Source of the DNA: Microcoleus vaginatus WJT46-NPBG5
Lineage (GTDB): Bacteria > Cyanobacteriota > Cyanobacteriia > Cyanobacteriales > Oscillatoriaceae
Assembly: GCA_019359355.1 (NCBI GenBank)
Contig: JAHHHM010000018.1
Coordinates: 62,001-126,000 of the forward strand
Length of the DNA: 64,000 bases
Direction of reading: 5' to 3'
This document shows, piece by piece, positions 47,289 to 54,242 of this stretch. The notes under the pieces are model-generated. The model did no database searches. It was given only the letters and a program-made list of their open reading frames with translations, and had not been told where the DNA came from. The translations under genes were made by a program, and so were the position numbers. Numbering within the stretch: the first letter of the stretch is position 1; each line of letters begins with the position of its first letter.

Positions 47289-48118
47289 CCTTTATCTCCT
47301 GTAGTCCGAGCGTAATTAACTGGGTATCCCCAATTAAGATCCCATAAAATTTTGACGGAAATGCTGATTTTTCCTAAATGAGAAAAAACTTTAGCCTTAC
47401 CAAATTTAAGAATAGGGAACGTTGGCTACCTTGACAATATAAATCATTATGATTAATTTAAATTAAGTAAATTAAAAAAACTTAACCTTCCGTTCATTGT
47501 AGTGGTCGGCTGCATCGAAGACTGCACAATTTTGGGCCGGTTGCAGCAGTTTTATAATTTTTTTATTACTTTTACATCCGATAGACTTTTATCAGCGCCT
47601 TTCCCCACGCCAATAAATGAGGGGTAGCATTGCAAGCCGATTGTCGATTCCTTGGCTCTAGGATTCAGACAAAAATAACAAAAACACTATTTTACATGAC
47701 TTTGAGGGCGGACGTAGCGTTAAGAGGAAACGCTTTGGCAGATACAACTCAAGATGTTGAGGGTTGCGCTTATCACCAATTTGTGCGTAGCTTAACCGAC
47801 ACACGTTGCTTGTAACTGTGAGCGCAACCTTTGCCGGTTTAAACACCTATTGCAGTTGGGTGCAAAATCAAGTCATCTCAGCTAAATAGGTAAAAACGCT
47901 TAATCTCTCTAACCCCTATAAATAAAATTTAGAGGCGTTATTTATGATTTTTTTGTCTGGAATACTTAACTTTCAGGGCAGCGATAGGTTACGCTAGACA
48001 GAACAAAAGTTAAAAATTATTCATTGAACTCAGGCAGAACTCTCAGGAAACACGGAAAGCGTTTCAATACAGTTCGGGCAAGGTTCAATAAAGTCGGTAA
48101 TTTCATAAGGAAATTTAG
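47289..48118. promoter_or_regulatory. divergent control region between ccmK2 and ndhF3
   Basis: This 830-bp spacer is AT-rich. On the plus strand TTGACA (47431-47436) lies 17 bases before TAATTT (47454-47459), a possible promoter far upstream of ndhF3. Within its spacer is the palindrome ATCATTATGAT (47443-47453). Two copies of TTCAATA (48063-48069 and 48084-48090), exactly 21 bases apart, lie 29-56 bases before the ndhF3 start. They could be sites for a regulator such as CcmR. An inverted repeat AGCGTT...AACGCT is near 47715-47733. A 61-codon frame at 47630 has no support. Confidence 0.45.
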
Positions 48119-49954
48119 ATGAGAGACTTCTTCCTCCAAACAAGTTGGTGGATACCTTTCTATGGCTTAATTGGCGGGATATTAACCTTGCCGTGGTCAA
48201 TCGGAGCGATCCGTCGCACGGGGCCACGACCGGCAGCCTACTTTAACCTGTTGATGACCGTCTTGGCTTTTGCTCACGGGTGGGTACTCTTCAACTCCAC
48301 CTGGAACCAAGAACCCCAAGAGCTCATAATCCACTGGCTACAAACAGCAGATTTAGATTTATCCTTGGCCCTAGACATCTCCAGCGTCAGTGTGGGGGCA
48401 ATGGAACTGATAACAGGTTTAAGTCTGCTAGCGCAAGTCTTTGCCCTCGGATATATGGAGAAAGACTGGGCGCTGGCTCGCTTTTTTGCCCTCATGGGAT
48501 TTTTTGAGGCGGCGATGAGTGGGCTTGCCATTAGTAACTCTTTATTTCTCACCTACGCCCTGCTAGAAATTCTCACCCTTTCCACCTATTTACTGGTGGG
48601 ATTTTGGTACGCCCAGCCGCTGGTAGTGACGGCAGCGCGAGATGCCTTTTTGACCAAGCGGGTAGGAGATATTCTTTTGCTGATGGGCGTTGTGGCGCTG
48701 GCAACGATGTCGGGAAGCTTGAACTTTCCCGATCTGTATGAGTGGGCAGAAACAGCCAATCTCTCTCCCGCAGCAGCTAACCTATTAGGCTTAGCTTTAA
48801 TTGCTGGACCCACCGGCAAGTGCGCTCAATTTCCCTTGCATCTTTGGCTAGATGAAGCGATGGAAGGGCCAAACCCGGCTTCTATCTTGCGAAACTCAGT
48901 TGTCGTCGCTTGCGGCGCTTATGTGTTGATTAAACTACAGCCCATATTGGTGCTCTCGCCGGCAGCGCAAACAGCACTCGTTGTCTTAGGCACGATGACA
49001 GCAATTGGTGCGTGTTTGGTGGCGATCGCCCAAATTGATATCAAGCGAGCATTGTCTCATTCCACCAGCGCTTACTTAGGGCTGGTGTTTATCGCAGTGG
49101 GATTGCAATGGACGGGTTTTGCCCTGCTGTTGCTTTTTGCCCATGCGCTCGCAAAAGCACTTCTATTCATGAGCATTGGCTCTGTGATTCTAACAACCAA
49201 CAACCAAAACCTCACAGAAATGGGCGGGCTTTGGTCACGGATGCCGGCAACCACCACGGCTTTTATCGTGGGTTCTGCAGGGTTAGTGGGACTGCTGCCT
49301 TTAGGCGGTTTTTGGGCGCTTAGACAAGGCATTGATGTTTTTTGGGTCAGCCATCCTTGGGTCGTGGCAGTTGTATTGTCGGTTAACTTCCTCACCGCAA
49401 TTAATTTAACCCGCGTGTTTCGTCTGGTGTTTTTAGGCAAGCCCCAGCCTAAGACTCGCCGCGCGCCTGAAGTTCCCTGGCCGATGGCGGTGCCGATGGT
49501 GTCTATGATAGTGATCACGCTGTTAGCGCCCCTGATGATGCTGCACTTGTCACTATTGCCAGACTGGGCGTACCTGAACCCAGCCGCTGTGGCGCTGCTC
49601 ATTTTATCGGGCTTAGGCGGCGTTATTGTGGGCAGTTCGCTTTATTTGGAAAGAGCTTGGTCTAGATCGATTCTCTCACCTGTGAGATTCGTACAAGACT
49701 TGTTATCTTACGATTTTTATGTAGACCGGCTTTACCGCCTCACGGTCGTTTTTGCCGTCGAGCGATTTTCAAAGATTACAGCTTGGGTTGACCGCTATGT
49801 GGTAGATGGAGCCGTTAACTTAGTGGGAATAAGCGCTATCTTTAGCGGGGAAAGCTTGAAGTACAATGTTTCCGGTCAGTCGCAATTTTATGTACTGACC
49901 ATCCTTCTGGGAGTCAGTGTTTTGGTGATTCTGATGATGGGTTATGTGCAATAA
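48119..49954 (+). CDS. ndhF3: NDH-1 subunit NdhF3 (inducible CO2 uptake)
   Basis: The protein has 611 residues. ATG 48119 is preceded by AAGGA. It has about 15 membrane segments and the proton-channel core of the Nuo-L/NdhF family (GPTGKCAQFPLHLWLDEAME and KRALSHSTSAYLGLVF). NdhF3 with NdhD3 and CupA forms the distal arm of the NDH-1MS complex in thylakoids, which turns CO2 into bicarbonate using reducing power. The F3 assignment rests on the neighbouring ndhD3 and cupA. The gene lies divergently from the carboxysome cluster. Confidence 0.93.
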   Translation: MRDFFLQTSWWIPFYGLIGGILTLPWSIGAIRRTGPRPAAYFNLLMTVLAFAHGWVLFNSTWNQEPQELIIHWLQTADLDLSLALDISSVSVGAMELITGLSLLAQVFALGYMEKDWALARFFALMGFFEAAMSGLAISNSLFLTYALLEILTLSTYLLVGFWYAQPLVVTAARDAFLTKRVGDILLLMGVVALATMSGSLNFPDLYEWAETANLSPAAANLLGLALIAGPTGKCAQFPLHLWLDEAMEGPNPASILRNSVVVACGAYVLIKLQPILVLSPAAQTALVVLGTMTAIGACLVAIAQIDIKRALSHSTSAYLGLVFIAVGLQWTGFALLLLFAHALAKALLFMSIGSVILTTNNQNLTEMGGLWSRMPATTTAFIVGSAGLVGLLPLGGFWALRQGIDVFWVSHPWVVAVVLSVNFLTAINLTRVFRLVFLGKPQPKTRRAPEVPWPMAVPMVSMIVITLLAPLMMLHLSLLPDWAYLNPAAVALLILSGLGGVIVGSSLYLERAWSRSILSPVRFVQDLLSYDFYVDRLYRLTVVFAVERFSKITAWVDRYVVDGAVNLVGISAIFSGESLKYNVSGQSQFYVLTILLGVSVLVILMMGYVQ

Positions 49955-49971
49955 GTAAGCGGCGAATTAAG

Positions 49972-50012
49972 AGAAGCGAGAATGGGAAATTTGTTTCACT
50001 GTTCTCGCTTCT
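49972..50012 (+). terminator. terminator-like hairpin after ndhF3
   Basis: AGAAGCGAGAA (49972-49982) and TTCTCGCTTCT (50002-50012) form a perfect 11-bp stem with a 19-nt loop, followed by TTCTGTCTCTTG. It begins 18 bases after the ndhF3 stop. It would end or reduce transcription before ndhD3. A 66-codon frame starting at 49982 lies inside it and is not a gene. Confidence 0.7.
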
Positions 50013-50759
50013 TTCTGTCTCTTGACTATTTTTTAGGCCGATTGTTTGATGAAGTGGTCAAATTTGCCAAACAAGAACGGCTTGGCTCACTCCTACCTAA
50101 ACTTTCAATCCCAGCATTTCCTAAATCTGAGAGTGGGGAAACTCCAACAAGAACTAGAGTGGAGGCTCTGCAATATTTGTGAGCTGGTAATATTTTCAAA
50201 AAGTTAAGGAAGTTGGAGACAAAGACATCTTCGCTTTTTGTCCTAACTTGCTTTTCCAACTTTGTGAAATAAATATTGAGACATTGACCCTATTGACATA
50301 CAATAGTTTTACATATCTAGTAAATCCTTGACAGCGACCTAATTTCTGTTAGGAGAGAAACTGTTGCCCGTTCCTGTTAAACAGATATACGGCTAAAGGG
50401 ACGCGAGTCTAAACTGGCTCTGCTTGGCTGTCCCGGAAGAAATGTTGTCATCACTCCTATCAAAAGGCGAGCCGGCAATGAAAATCCTCTAAAGCTATCA
50501 TTGAAAACTTCGTGAAATAAGAAAATCTTAAAATTCTTGCTCGCCTTTACAGGTTGAAACAGCAAAAATGTCTGGCGTATCCCAGAATGTTGCTAAAAAC
50601 GTTTTACGAGTGATTAAGATAAATGATTTTGCTTTGGTCGCGTTGTAATCCTTGCCAATTAAAAAGAATAGAGTTAAATGCAGGTTAAGATAAGTTATGA
50701 GCGCTCACAATTGATGAGCCGGTCGTCATAAAATTTTACTAAAGGAGGGAGATTTATTA
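50013..50759. promoter_or_regulatory. structured leader or spacer before ndhD3
   Basis: These ~750 bp hold several inverted repeats. The first is AAGTTGGA (50210-50217) with TCCAACTT (50255-50262), which encloses GACAAAG with CTTTTTGTC. The second is a GGGAC/GTCCC pair near 50399-50433. The third is AAAGGCGAGC (about 50464) with GCTCGCCTTT (about 50540). TTGACA at about 50294 may be a -35 box. An AAAGGAGGGAG ribosome site lies just before ndhD3. No gene is supported. Confidence 0.5.
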
Positions 50760-52259
50760 ATGCTTAGTGCCTTAATTTGGGTGCCAATACTCGCTGCTGC
50801 TCTCATTGGGTTCTGGCCAACAGAAATAACGCCGGCTCGATCTCGCCAGCTAGCTTTAGTCATTGCCGGCGGGCTGTTTATCTGGACGCTGATTCTGCTC
50901 AGCAAGTTTGATGTCGGCGCGGCGGGCTTTCAGTTTGCCGAGTCCATGCCCTGGATTGAAGCGTTAGGTTTAACCTATAACCTCGGTATGGATGGTTTGT
51001 CTTTACCATTGATCGTTTTAAATGGTTTGCTCACCTCTATTGCCATTTACAGCAGTGATAAAGATGTGCAGCGGCCTCGATTTTATTACGCTTTACTTTT
51101 CCTACTCAATGCCGGTGTTGTCGGCGCATTTTTAGCACAAGATTTGCTGCTGTTTTTCTTATTTTATGAGTTGGAACTGATTCCGCTGTACTTCTTAATT
51201 GCCATTTGGGGCGGACAGCGTCGCGGTTATGCAGCCATCAAATTTCTCATCTACACCGCAATTTCTGGAATTCTGGTTTTAGCATCATTTTTAGGATTGG
51301 TTTGGTTCACCGGCGCTTCAACCTTTGCATACGATCCGCAACTCGCTCAAGCCTTACCTTTAGGTACACAAATGCTGCTGCTGGGCGGAGTTTTGCTGGC
51401 ATTTGGCATTAAAATTCCTTTGGTTCCCTTTCACACTTGGTTGCCAGACGCTCACGTTGAGGCATCTACCCCAATTTCAGTGCTGCTGGCTGGAGTGCTC
51501 TTAAAATTAGGGACTTATGGACTGCTACGGTTTGGCTTAGGCTTGTTTCCCGATGCGTGGGCTGCTTGGGCACCGTGGTTGGCTAGCTGGGCAGTGGTGA
51601 GTGTGCTCTACGGCGCATTCAGTGCAATCGCCCAAACAGATATGAAAAAAATGGTAGCCTACTCCTCGATTGGGCACATGGGCTACATTCTTTTGGCGTG
51701 TGCTGCCGCGACACCCCTGAGTGTGCTGGGGGCGGTTTTCCAAATGATCAGCCACGGGTTGATTTCAGCCCTGCTGTTCTTGCTGGTTGGAGTTGTTTAC
51801 AAAAAAGCCGGCAGCCGCGATCTGACGATTATCGAAGGACTGCTCAACCCGGAACGGGGTTTGCCCATGATTGGCAGTTTGATGGTGTTGGGCGTCATGG
51901 CTAGCGCCGGCATTCCAGGTATGGTGGGATTCATAGCGGAATTTATAGTTTTTCGCGGCAGCTTCCCCGTCTTTCCTGTGCAAACGCTGCTGGCGATGGT
52001 GGGAACCGGCTTAACCGCTGTTTACTTCCTGCTTTTAACCAACCGCGCCTTTTTTGGCCGGCTGTCTCAGCGAGTCATCAACTTACCTCAAGTTCGGTGG
52101 TCAGATCGCACGCCGGCGATTATTTTAAGCGTAGTCATCGTTGTCCTGGGAATGCAGCCAAGCTGGATGGTGCGCTGGAGTGAGGCTACAACAACCGCAA
52201 TGCTTAACAAAGCCCCAGTAACCTTGACGCTATCAGCTACCCCAGAAAGCCAAAAGTAA
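50760..52259 (+). CDS. ndhD3: NDH-1 subunit NdhD3 (inducible CO2 uptake)
   Basis: The protein has 499 residues. ATG 50760 has AAAGGAGGGAG upstream. About 13-14 membrane segments show the Nuo-M/NdhD pattern (FYELELIPLYFLIAIWGG with the key Glu, PLVPFHTWLPDAHVEA and KMVAYSSIGHMGYILLA). NdhD3 pairs with NdhF3 in the CO2-uptake arm of NDH-1MS. The D3 rather than D1/D2/D4 call rests on the immediate neighbour cupA. The next gene starts 99 bases on. Confidence 0.93.
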   Translation: MLSALIWVPILAAALIGFWPTEITPARSRQLALVIAGGLFIWTLILLSKFDVGAAGFQFAESMPWIEALGLTYNLGMDGLSLPLIVLNGLLTSIAIYSSDKDVQRPRFYYALLFLLNAGVVGAFLAQDLLLFFLFYELELIPLYFLIAIWGGQRRGYAAIKFLIYTAISGILVLASFLGLVWFTGASTFAYDPQLAQALPLGTQMLLLGGVLLAFGIKIPLVPFHTWLPDAHVEASTPISVLLAGVLLKLGTYGLLRFGLGLFPDAWAAWAPWLASWAVVSVLYGAFSAIAQTDMKKMVAYSSIGHMGYILLACAAATPLSVLGAVFQMISHGLISALLFLLVGVVYKKAGSRDLTIIEGLLNPERGLPMIGSLMVLGVMASAGIPGMVGFIAEFIVFRGSFPVFPVQTLLAMVGTGLTAVYFLLLTNRAFFGRLSQRVINLPQVRWSDRTPAIILSVVIVVLGMQPSWMVRWSEATTTAMLNKAPVTLTLSATPESQK

Positions 52260-52358
52260 AAATGCTAAAGGTAAAAGACAGTAGAAAAAAAGTCTTTTGC
52301 CTTTTTCTAACTAACTTTTAACTTTTCTATCCCTGCTTATTTTTTGAGGATAACCGCC

Positions 52359-53525
52359 ATGACAAAAGCTGCTTTAAAATATTCTAATCATCCCCTGGCA
52401 ACCTACATTGATAAATTGGAAGCCGGTGACGCACTGCTTCCAGATTCGCCAGAAAATGTTTTGGAAGTTGTCGGAATTCTTAAAAGCTACGGCATCGTTT
52501 TAGATGCGTATTCTATCAATCTTAATTACATCGCTGAACATCAATTTTTAGAATTGTTTCCCTTTTTTAAATACTTCGATGGGGAGTTTTCGGTTAAGAA
52601 GTTGCTGCGCCATTGGTGGCACGACCGAATTAATTTTGAGTACGCCGAATATTGCATGAAAGCGATGCTTTGGCATGGCGGCGGCGGTTTGGATGCTTAT
52701 TTAGATTCGCCAGAGTTTAGCCGGCTGGCTGAGAAAGCAATTCAGGCTAAACTTAAGGGCAATTTTCTGATGTTGGGACTGCACCGGCTGTTTCCTGAGT
52801 TCTTGCCAGAACAAATCAGACAATTCGCTTACTATAGCGGTTTGGGCCAGTTTTGGCGGGTGATGAGTGATATGTTTATCTCCCTGTCGGATCGTTATGA
52901 CAGAGGGGAAATTAAAACAATTCCTCAAGTTGTCGAGCATATTTTGAACGGTTTAGTGGCGGATGCGAATAAGCCGATTACCTATAGTGTGAAGATTGGG
53001 AACCAATTGTACGATATCCTTCCTAAATCTGCCGGTTTAACCTTTCTTGCCGATACAGGCGTGCCTTATGTAGAGGCGGTTTTCTTCCGAGGGACGCCAT
53101 TTCCTGGCACCGTTTCTTACAACGCCCAAGCTTATCAAATTCCTGTGGATCAGGGCGATTTCACCTATGGCGCTTTGTATGCAGATCCCCTACCTATTGG
53201 GGGTGCCGGCATTCCCCCCACCCAACTCATGCAAGATATGCGCCATTTTATCCCCGAATATTTGCATGAAATTTACCGCAACAGTTGCCGGGGTGAAGAT
53301 GATCTGCGGGTGCAAATTTGTCAAACTTTTCAAAAGTCAATGTTTTGCGTAACAACGGCTGCGATTCAAGGGTTAGCACCGCATCCATTAAATACATCCG
53401 ATCCGAAGCAACGGCAAGAAAATCGGGCATATTTAGAAAATTGGATGGATCGATTCAAGCAGTCTCGTTTGGCAGAAGTTAATAAGCCAACTGAACGGTA
53501 TTGCCAGCTATTTCCTGAGAGATAA
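52359..53525 (+). CDS. cupA: CO2 hydration protein CupA (ChpY)
   Basis: The protein has 388 residues. ATG 52359 is preferred over TTG 52344, with GAGGATAA before it. It is a CO2_hydration-family protein without membrane segments. The conserved His/Arg/Trp region is LLRHWWHDRINFEYAEYC near residue 87, where the family's zinc site is placed, and MLWHGGGGLDAYLDSPEF follows. CupA caps the NdhF3-NdhD3 arm and hydrates CO2 at the thylakoid. It lies after ndhD3 in the usual order. No cupS follows; the next gene is a penicillin-binding protein. Confidence 0.93.
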   Translation: MTKAALKYSNHPLATYIDKLEAGDALLPDSPENVLEVVGILKSYGIVLDAYSINLNYIAEHQFLELFPFFKYFDGEFSVKKLLRHWWHDRINFEYAEYCMKAMLWHGGGGLDAYLDSPEFSRLAEKAIQAKLKGNFLMLGLHRLFPEFLPEQIRQFAYYSGLGQFWRVMSDMFISLSDRYDRGEIKTIPQVVEHILNGLVADANKPITYSVKIGNQLYDILPKSAGLTFLADTGVPYVEAVFFRGTPFPGTVSYNAQAYQIPVDQGDFTYGALYADPLPIGGAGIPPTQLMQDMRHFIPEYLHEIYRNSCRGEDDLRVQICQTFQKSMFCVTTAAIQGLAPHPLNTSDPKQRQENRAYLENWMDRFKQSRLAEVNKPTERYCQLFPER

Positions 53526-54242
53526 AAGCAGTTTTTTTCTTAACAGATTGTTTGCCGGCAAAACGAGAAGATAAGTGTATTGATTGAGCATCTTCTCTGA
53601 GGTTCAGGACTTAAGTGAAATTGCAAAAAGTTAGGCCCCGTAAGGGCGGGTACGTTAAGAGGATCTGTAGAATACCGAATTTATCCTCTCAAACCGCCCT
53701 AGGCTCAAAATTAGTGAAAATATAGAAATATGCAGAGCATTATTCAAAATTTTGCTCTGATTAAATTTCAGGCTTTAATTTTCCAGAATAAGCCGGCATC
53801 TTGCTGGCCAGAAAATTCCCGTCAATGGGGTGAGTCTTCTGTCTAGTGGCCCACACTGCTGGGGCCAAGACGGGAATGAATATATCTATAGGCAGAAAAG
53901 CGAGTCCATCTGTTTTCTATCAATTTGCGAAACAATTGCCTACTTTCCCAATCCTGAATCTCCTTTGTTCTCTAAAATTTTTCCATTTTAAGTCTAAATT
54001 TTTCAATTCAAAATGATATTATCTGCCGGCAACCCTTCAAGTTTTCCAAAAAAATAAAAATTAGTATCTCAGACAAAAAAACTGCGTTTAAGTACCAGAT
54101 TTTCTATATTTACGCATCTGTATTTTTTAATTTACGACTTAAGACAGAGGCTTAGTAAAAAACCAGAGGGTAGGTTTCAGTTGATCCCCATTAGGGATTA
54201 TCCTGTTTAAAGCAAAGCTTGTTATCGCTGAGCCTGCGTCTT
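53526..54242. other. spacer after cupA, with possible structured RNA
   Basis: This is a 717-bp spacer. A small repeat-like dyad (GCCCCGTAAGGGCGGG) lies near 53635. A longer paired structure at 53815-53877 is listed separately. The part nearest the next gene is AT-rich and probably holds its promoter. No cupS-like (fasciclin-type) frame is present on either strand. Confidence 0.5.
53815..53877. ncRNA. candidate structured RNA
   Basis: ATTCCCGTC (53815-53823) pairs exactly with GACGGGAAT (53869-53877). Inside, TGGCCC (53847-53852) pairs with GGGCCA (53862-53867), leaving an asymmetric internal loop. Just upstream, GCCGGCATCTTGCTGGC can form another small stem. The strand is unknown. The shape resembles a small regulatory RNA or an attenuator, but no family is recognised. 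It is a candidate only. Confidence 0.35.

Follow-up and report, generated by a model that had tools for sequence, protein, structure and literature searches.

An enlarged ndhF3-ndhD3 junction in Microcoleus vaginatus WJT46-NPBG5 and two genomes of the same genus, with a stem-loop after ndhF3 and a conserved stretch before ndhD3

The window, i.e., the whole stretch of DNA that was analysed, comprises 64,000 nucleotides of contig JAHHHM010000018.1 (positions 62,001 to 126,000, forward strand) from the 6.46 Mb genome of Microcoleus vaginatus WJT46-NPBG5. According to the ORF list and the family models, ndhF3, ndhD3 and cupA follow each other in this order, all on the plus strand. The ndhF3 ORF at 48119-49954 was recognized by NCBIfam TIGR01960 (1011 bits, cut-off 588.7), which places its product in the NdhF3 family, a subunit of NDH-1MS, the complex induced at low CO2. 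The ndhD3 ORF at 50760-52259 was assigned to the NdhD-type subunit M (NCBIfam NF005060, 877.6 bits, cut-off 747), and cupA (chpY) at 52344-53525, encoding a CO2 hydration protein, matched both Pfam PF10216 (661 bits) and TIGR01964 (CupA/ChpXY). ORFs for CcmK-like shell proteins, noted by eye, adjoin the three genes on the opposite strand. Between the divergent ccmK-type ORF and ndhF3 lies a 162-bp run (47329-47490) which is identical in all three genomes of the genus, longer than any other identical run in the 22 measured intergenic regions. A strong ribosome binding site had been predicted for ndhD3; it was found as the Shine-Dalgarno sequence AGGAGGG at 50743-50749 on the plus strand, 10 nt upstream of the ATG, within a 20-bp run (50740-50759) identical across the three genus genomes. 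The same genes, in the same order and on a single strand, form the low-CO2 operon ndhF3-ndhD3-cupA(-cupS) of Synechocystis PCC 6803 (NDH-1S/NDH-1MS), according to the available parts of two sources (PMC11456788, PMC13249358). The locus described here differs in its 805-bp ndhF3-ndhD3 junction, and in that the next ORF of at least 100 aa listed after cupA is the one at 54219, so that no cupS or cupAR of this size is seen in the interval. In the available text on Synechocystis, the ndhF3-ndhD3-cupA genes are described as one operon, and RT-PCR showed cupA, cupS and cupAR to be cotranscribed, "possibly" together with ndhD3 and ndhF3 (PMC11456788). Among the papers listed in literature searches, none dealt with this junction by title or abstract.

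The spacer of about 800 bp reported in the original prediction is real: ndhF3 ends at 49954 and ndhD3 starts at 50760, leaving 805 bp with a G+C content of 39%, compared to 47% for the whole window. It is single-copy in its own genome. The two other genomes of the genus that were examined, G001 and G002, of which G001 is the more distant relative, also have long gaps (769 and 782 bp), and in a search with the whole spacer against 60 genomes, its own included, full matches came from these two. A 36-nt match in G054 was set aside as chance-like, since the surrounding DNA was unrelated. In five other genomes of the family the gap measured 102, 112, 113, 152, and 637 bp (one of these five genomes is only 66% complete), and the longest of them, in G003, holds a remnant resembling an IS element or transposase as judged by eye. 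The 805-bp spacer is an enlargement of the ndhF3/ndhD3 junction specific to the genus, present in three of three genus genomes and, at that size, in none of the five others in the family. The survey was widened to 146 genomes of the order, own genome included, and with the cut-off adopted, ndhD3 was matched in at least 112 of these. Among the matches listed, ndhF3 was placed just upstream of ndhD3 in 99 of 112, and the 13 without an adjacent ndhF3 include pairs split between contigs. The median distance for the 99 listed pairs was 177 nt, counted between aligned ends and hence taking in the stop codon and any unaligned end of ndhF3. Distances of at least 300 nt were recorded for 19 of these 99 pairs and of at least 500 nt for 10, three of the latter being this genus. 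Long gaps are not unique to the genus, since seven of the 96 adjacent pairs listed from outside it reach at least 500 nt. The statement that the two genes normally lie close together is therefore correct for the median but not for this tail of the distribution.

Immediately after ndhF3 an intercistronic stem-loop is formed at 49970-50014 (plus strand), recognized both as a fold and as an inverted repeat. Its core is the perfect 11-bp hairpin that had been noticed earlier, with fully complementary arms at 49972-49982 and 50002-50012, 19 nt apart. The fold has a z score of -5.15, with none of 200 shuffles equally stable, and arms of at least 10 bp with a loop of at most 20 did not arise when the spacer was dinucleotide-shuffled 40 times. 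The arms are identical in all three genus genomes, while the loop is variable. Counting each base pair once in each of the two relatives G001 and G002 (cells), 36 of 40 cells were paired, and all four breaks fell outside the 11-bp core. Genome-wide, there is a single exact copy of this pair of arms. The structure is terminator-like in being a stable G+C-containing stem-loop, but its T tail is poor: it is followed by TTCTGTCTC, not by a clean T-run, and some of these T's pair within the longer fold. It was not listed by a consensus terminator scan with a loop limit of 8, because the loop is above this limit and the T-run is broken.

A second stem-loop, with a 13-bp stem, lies between ndhD3 and cupA at 52267-52304 (plus strand; z -2.87 to -3.36). 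It ends in CCTTTTTC with the T-run partly paired, and is retained in three of three genus genomes. The gap that holds it is 84 bp long, presumably operon-internal, and 94-96% identical. Among 35 examinable gene 3' ends in the window, six have a z of -2 or lower; that of ndhF3 is the second strongest hairpin and that of ndhD3 ranks fourth, and no hairpin was found at the 3' end of cupA (z 0.81). Because there is another one between ndhD3 and cupA, the ndhF3 hairpin was considered as an intercistronic feature and not as proof of a transcript end. What survives of the proposal that a terminator splits ndhF3 from ndhD3 is thus the stable hairpin, and not a proven split. Leaky intrinsic terminators of Synechococcus elongatus PCC 7942 are likewise stem-loops between co-oriented genes, and in this species intra-transcript terminators often reduce transcription of the downstream ORF, as stated in the part of the source available (PMC3219970); the ndhF3 hairpin differs from them in its poor T tail. 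A further source on S. elongatus, also available in part, reports that U-tract strength correlates with termination efficiency, that a minority of ends resemble intrinsic terminators, and that cyanobacteria are without Rho (PMC13289151). The ndhF3 and ndhD3 hairpins offer natural intercistronic cases for termination tests in bacteria without Rho.

Alignment of the spacer across the three genomes gave 577 identical columns out of 807 (71%). By the same measure on BLAST alignments, its conservation was the lowest (0.72, the next being 0.75) among the 22 intergenic regions that could be measured; the set comprised 30 regions of at least 150 bp, eight of which aligned too poorly and may be less conserved still. 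With gaps excluded, identity of the spacer was 0.91 to G002 and 0.81 to G001, and fourfold sites in ndhF3, ndhD3 and cupA were 0.79-0.88 identical to G002 and 0.78-0.88 to G001. By this yardstick the spacer would on average be near neutral, and most of it looks like weakly constrained, ordinary drifting DNA. The end next to ndhD3 is well kept. The last 89 bp (50671-50759) are 94% identical in the three species against 69% in the interior, and this contrast was the steepest among the 20 genes measured. The other 19 genes, which were mechanical ORF calls with some starts possibly wrong, had identities of 0.79-1.00 in the last 90 bp before the start. Since such values are typical in the window, the ndhD3-proximal stretch resembles the upstream regions of other genes, with the rest of the spacer drifting. 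Within it, a block of 51 bp at 50671-50721 (no strand assigned) is identical in the genus and exceeds the longest run obtained in 5000 column shuffles (37). Its 24-bp core was present in three of nine genomes searched, namely the three of the genus, and the block is a candidate promoter/operator or leader element. Another identical block of 28 bp (50474-50501, no strand assigned) falls between the 95% and 99.9% points of the column shuffles. Identical runs of at least 36 bp, and up to 162 bp, occur in most of the measurable intergenic regions.

The spacer was scanned for promoter and regulator motifs. A promoter-like TTGAGA-17-TACAAT at 50276-50304 (plus strand) matches the consensus in 10 of 12 positions, is kept in three of three genomes, and would put some 450 nt of leader ahead of ndhD3. 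Between 48000 and 54000, matches of this type are about as frequent as chance predicts (9 found, 7.4 expected), and the site is therefore taken as a lead only. A promoter of its own for ndhD3-cupA, as originally suggested, is plausible; it gains indirectly from the conserved last 89 bp and from the retention of this site, but loses from the fact that such proximal conservation is usual and promoter matches are at chance. For the regulators NdhR and RbcR, the available text of one source gives the consensus ATAG-N8-CTAT and the motif ATTAR-N5-YTAAT, respectively (PMC13249358). The former had no match in the spacer with one mismatch allowed, and the latter had two weak matches with 3.0 expected. 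An older NdhR motif is TCAATG-N10-ATCAAT. Four weak matches to it, with 2-3 of 12 positions mismatched, were found in the spacer, compared to 1.1 in dinucleotide shuffles (four were reached by 16 of 500 shuffles) and to 1.4 for an equal length (805 bp) of intergenic DNA elsewhere in the window. The best of them overlaps TTGAGA-17-TACAAT and has three mismatches in both relatives, and another is inside the 51-bp block and identical in all three genomes. In the relatives the weak matches have 3-4 mismatches, and one falls within a deletion in G002. As several motifs were tried, the excess is weak and counts as a lead only. The CmpR, NtcA, and HLR1 motifs had one match each in the spacer, with approximately 1.1, 4.7, and 0.8 expected, respectively. 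Two other readings of the 51-bp block gained no support. A LacI operator reading of TTATGAGCGCTCACAA was abandoned, as the LacI-family model PF00356 found no protein in the genome but did so in 9 of 14 control genomes. Pho boxes, the sites of SphR/PhoB, are tandem YTTAAYYW repeats with 3-nt spacing at phosphate genes, and the block contains a two-repeat match on the minus strand. The pattern is not enriched in the genome (11, and 13 for the reversed control), so that the Pho-box reading of the GTTAA repeats gains nothing from it. At the eight of 11 such places that were looked at by eye no phosphate genes were recognized; one of the eight precedes an NdhD-like ORF.

The explanation that we favour, with roughly even confidence, is that the genus-specific spacer gave ndhD3-cupA a 5' control of its own, the ndhF3 hairpin being a leaky terminator or a stabiliser. 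In this explanation the ndhF3/ndhD3 junction would have been enlarged in the genus, with most of the spacer under weak constraint. The final 90 bp or so would most likely be the 5' control region belonging to ndhD3-cupA, made up of a promoter or operator, a leader and the strong ribosome site. At the stem-loop behind ndhF3, either termination would be leaky or the 3' end would be stabilised, and ndhF3 and ndhD3-cupA would be partly uncoupled, with some readthrough transcript still common to both. From the gap, the hairpin and the pattern of conservation we infer a separate start site, partial termination and partial uncoupling. Separate expression of ndhD3-cupA has a precedent, because the two genes stand apart from ndhF3 in G040, a genome of genus g36 in another family (L141:5396-12918), where some 3 kb that include a LysR-family gene separate cupA from ndhF3, and ndhF3 is encoded on the other strand. 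None of the six g36 genomes surveyed has an adjacent ndhF3-ndhD3 pair, although in five of them the genes are on different contigs. If ndhD3-cupA is expressed separately, two start sites would supply the subunits that have to assemble into a single CO2-uptake complex, and this would bear on how cyanobacteria balance that complex at low CO2.

A realistic, although somewhat less probable, explanation is one ordinary ndhF3-ndhD3-cupA transcript, in which the spacer, whether it is what is left of an insert or DNA that has drifted, is inert, and in which the stem-loops after ndhF3 and ndhD3 are intercistronic stabilisers or weak attenuators. The lowest conservation among the measurable intergenic regions suits it, as do the hairpins at both junctions, with ndhF3 and ndhD3 ranking high among the 3' ends and none after cupA. 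It is also consistent with the distribution of such hairpins. Within the family, z was -2 or lower at six of eight ndhF3-ndhD3 and eight of eight ndhD3-cupA junctions, compared to four of 22 and six of 16 outside it; the eight family junctions are not independent events, because three of the eight genomes are of this genus. In these counts 5 of 35 ndhF3-ndhD3 and 6 of 30 ndhD3-cupA junctions were too short and were left out, only the first 160 nt of long gaps were folded, and window lengths differed slightly between the two junction analyses. Further, most of the seven other gaps of at least 500 nt have some content of their own. G039 has a Uma2 gene there (L136:185-796, Pfam), and inspection by eye suggested a Uma2-like remnant in G008, the IS-like remnant in G003, a minisatellite in G086, repeats in G113, and several small ORFs in G023. 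In G097 no ORF of at least 60 aa was present and nothing was seen by eye. The 896-bp gap of Tychonema (L048:3105-4000) contains, by eye, a Uma2-like ORF. The ndhF3-ndhD3 junction is one that tolerates inserts, and if the present gap is inert it would be one more tolerant operon junction. However, the gap described here is at the same site as the other long cyanobacterial junctions but without any recognized content of these kinds. Ten of the 31 stop-to-stop frames of at least 35 aa in the three genomes were compared with Pfam for traces of a former gene, with one insignificant match (E 0.18), and six-frame translations gave no protein match to 119 other loci. Four DNA matches of 25-48 nt, obtained with blastn against the same loci, were taken as chance. 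The lack of any gene or element trace in these searches speaks against an inert insert, and the 51-bp identical run before ndhD3 would be unexpected for inert DNA.

The hairpin sequences at the family junctions differ between genera. The stem-loops after ndhF3 and ndhD3, conserved in the family in position and not in sequence, might serve as an operon-internal dial for the NdhF3/NdhD3/CupA ratio, to which the genus would have added a start site before ndhD3. We regard this as unlikely.

The remaining stems in the spacer bear on control by RNA structure. At least three further inverted repeats had been claimed. With arms of at least 8 bp and loops of at most 100, four perfect repeats were counted in all, compared to 1.6 expected, and four were reached in three of 40 shuffles. 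Two of the four have arms of at least 10 bp, namely the ndhF3 hairpin and 50463-50472/50539-50548 (0.05 expected, none of 40 shuffles). The fold of the whole spacer has a z of -3.1, with none of 20 shuffles equally stable. The second stable fold, at 50194-50269 on the plus strand, reached z -4.48, and 56 of its 60 cells were paired, including one two-sided change, but G001 prefers a different fold there. In the stem at 50440-50560, 12 of 58 cells were broken (9 of 29 in G001, three in G002), the 10-bp stem 50463/50539 being mostly retained in G002, and in that at 50560-50665, 15 of 60 were broken (10 of 30 in G001 and 5 of 30 in G002). All these pairing counts are descriptive and alignment-dependent, because covariation compared three genomes only. 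On this comparison the core of the ndhF3 stem is kept and 50194-50269 is partly kept, whereas G001 has lost much of the two later stems. Just before ndhD3, the conserved part (50670-50780) is not unusually stable (z 0.13), and Rfam at gathering scores gave no match in the whole window. The strongly structured regulatory spacer that had been envisaged mostly fails and does not stand. The suggested small RNA has neither an Rfam match nor a bounded conserved structure in the spacer to point to, and control of readthrough by RNA structure retains the stable ndhF3 hairpin, but is weakened by the similar one between ndhD3 and cupA and by the loss or partial retention of the other stems. That a long structured leader or a spacer-encoded small RNA regulates ndhD3-cupA seems to us quite improbable, since the stable whole-spacer fold, the element at 50194-50269 and the above-chance 10-bp repeat are set against the empty Rfam search, the stems lost in G001 and the ordinary stability just before ndhD3.

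Some observations were made in passing on the contents of corresponding junctions. Apparent decayed Uma2 copies lie in the ndhF3-ndhD3 junction of L139 and L144, and in the related genomes L135 and L143 this junction is filled with minisatellite-like arrays of GTTGAAGGTTAGC and CAACCTTCAAC units, as seen by eye. A paralogous cluster in the own genome (L142:243-971, G000:C31) contains a beta-carbonic anhydrase gene (Pro_CA, 9.9e-40) between the ndhF4-type and ndhD4-type genes, and the long gap in L030 has an ORF which by eye also reads like a beta-carbonic anhydrase.
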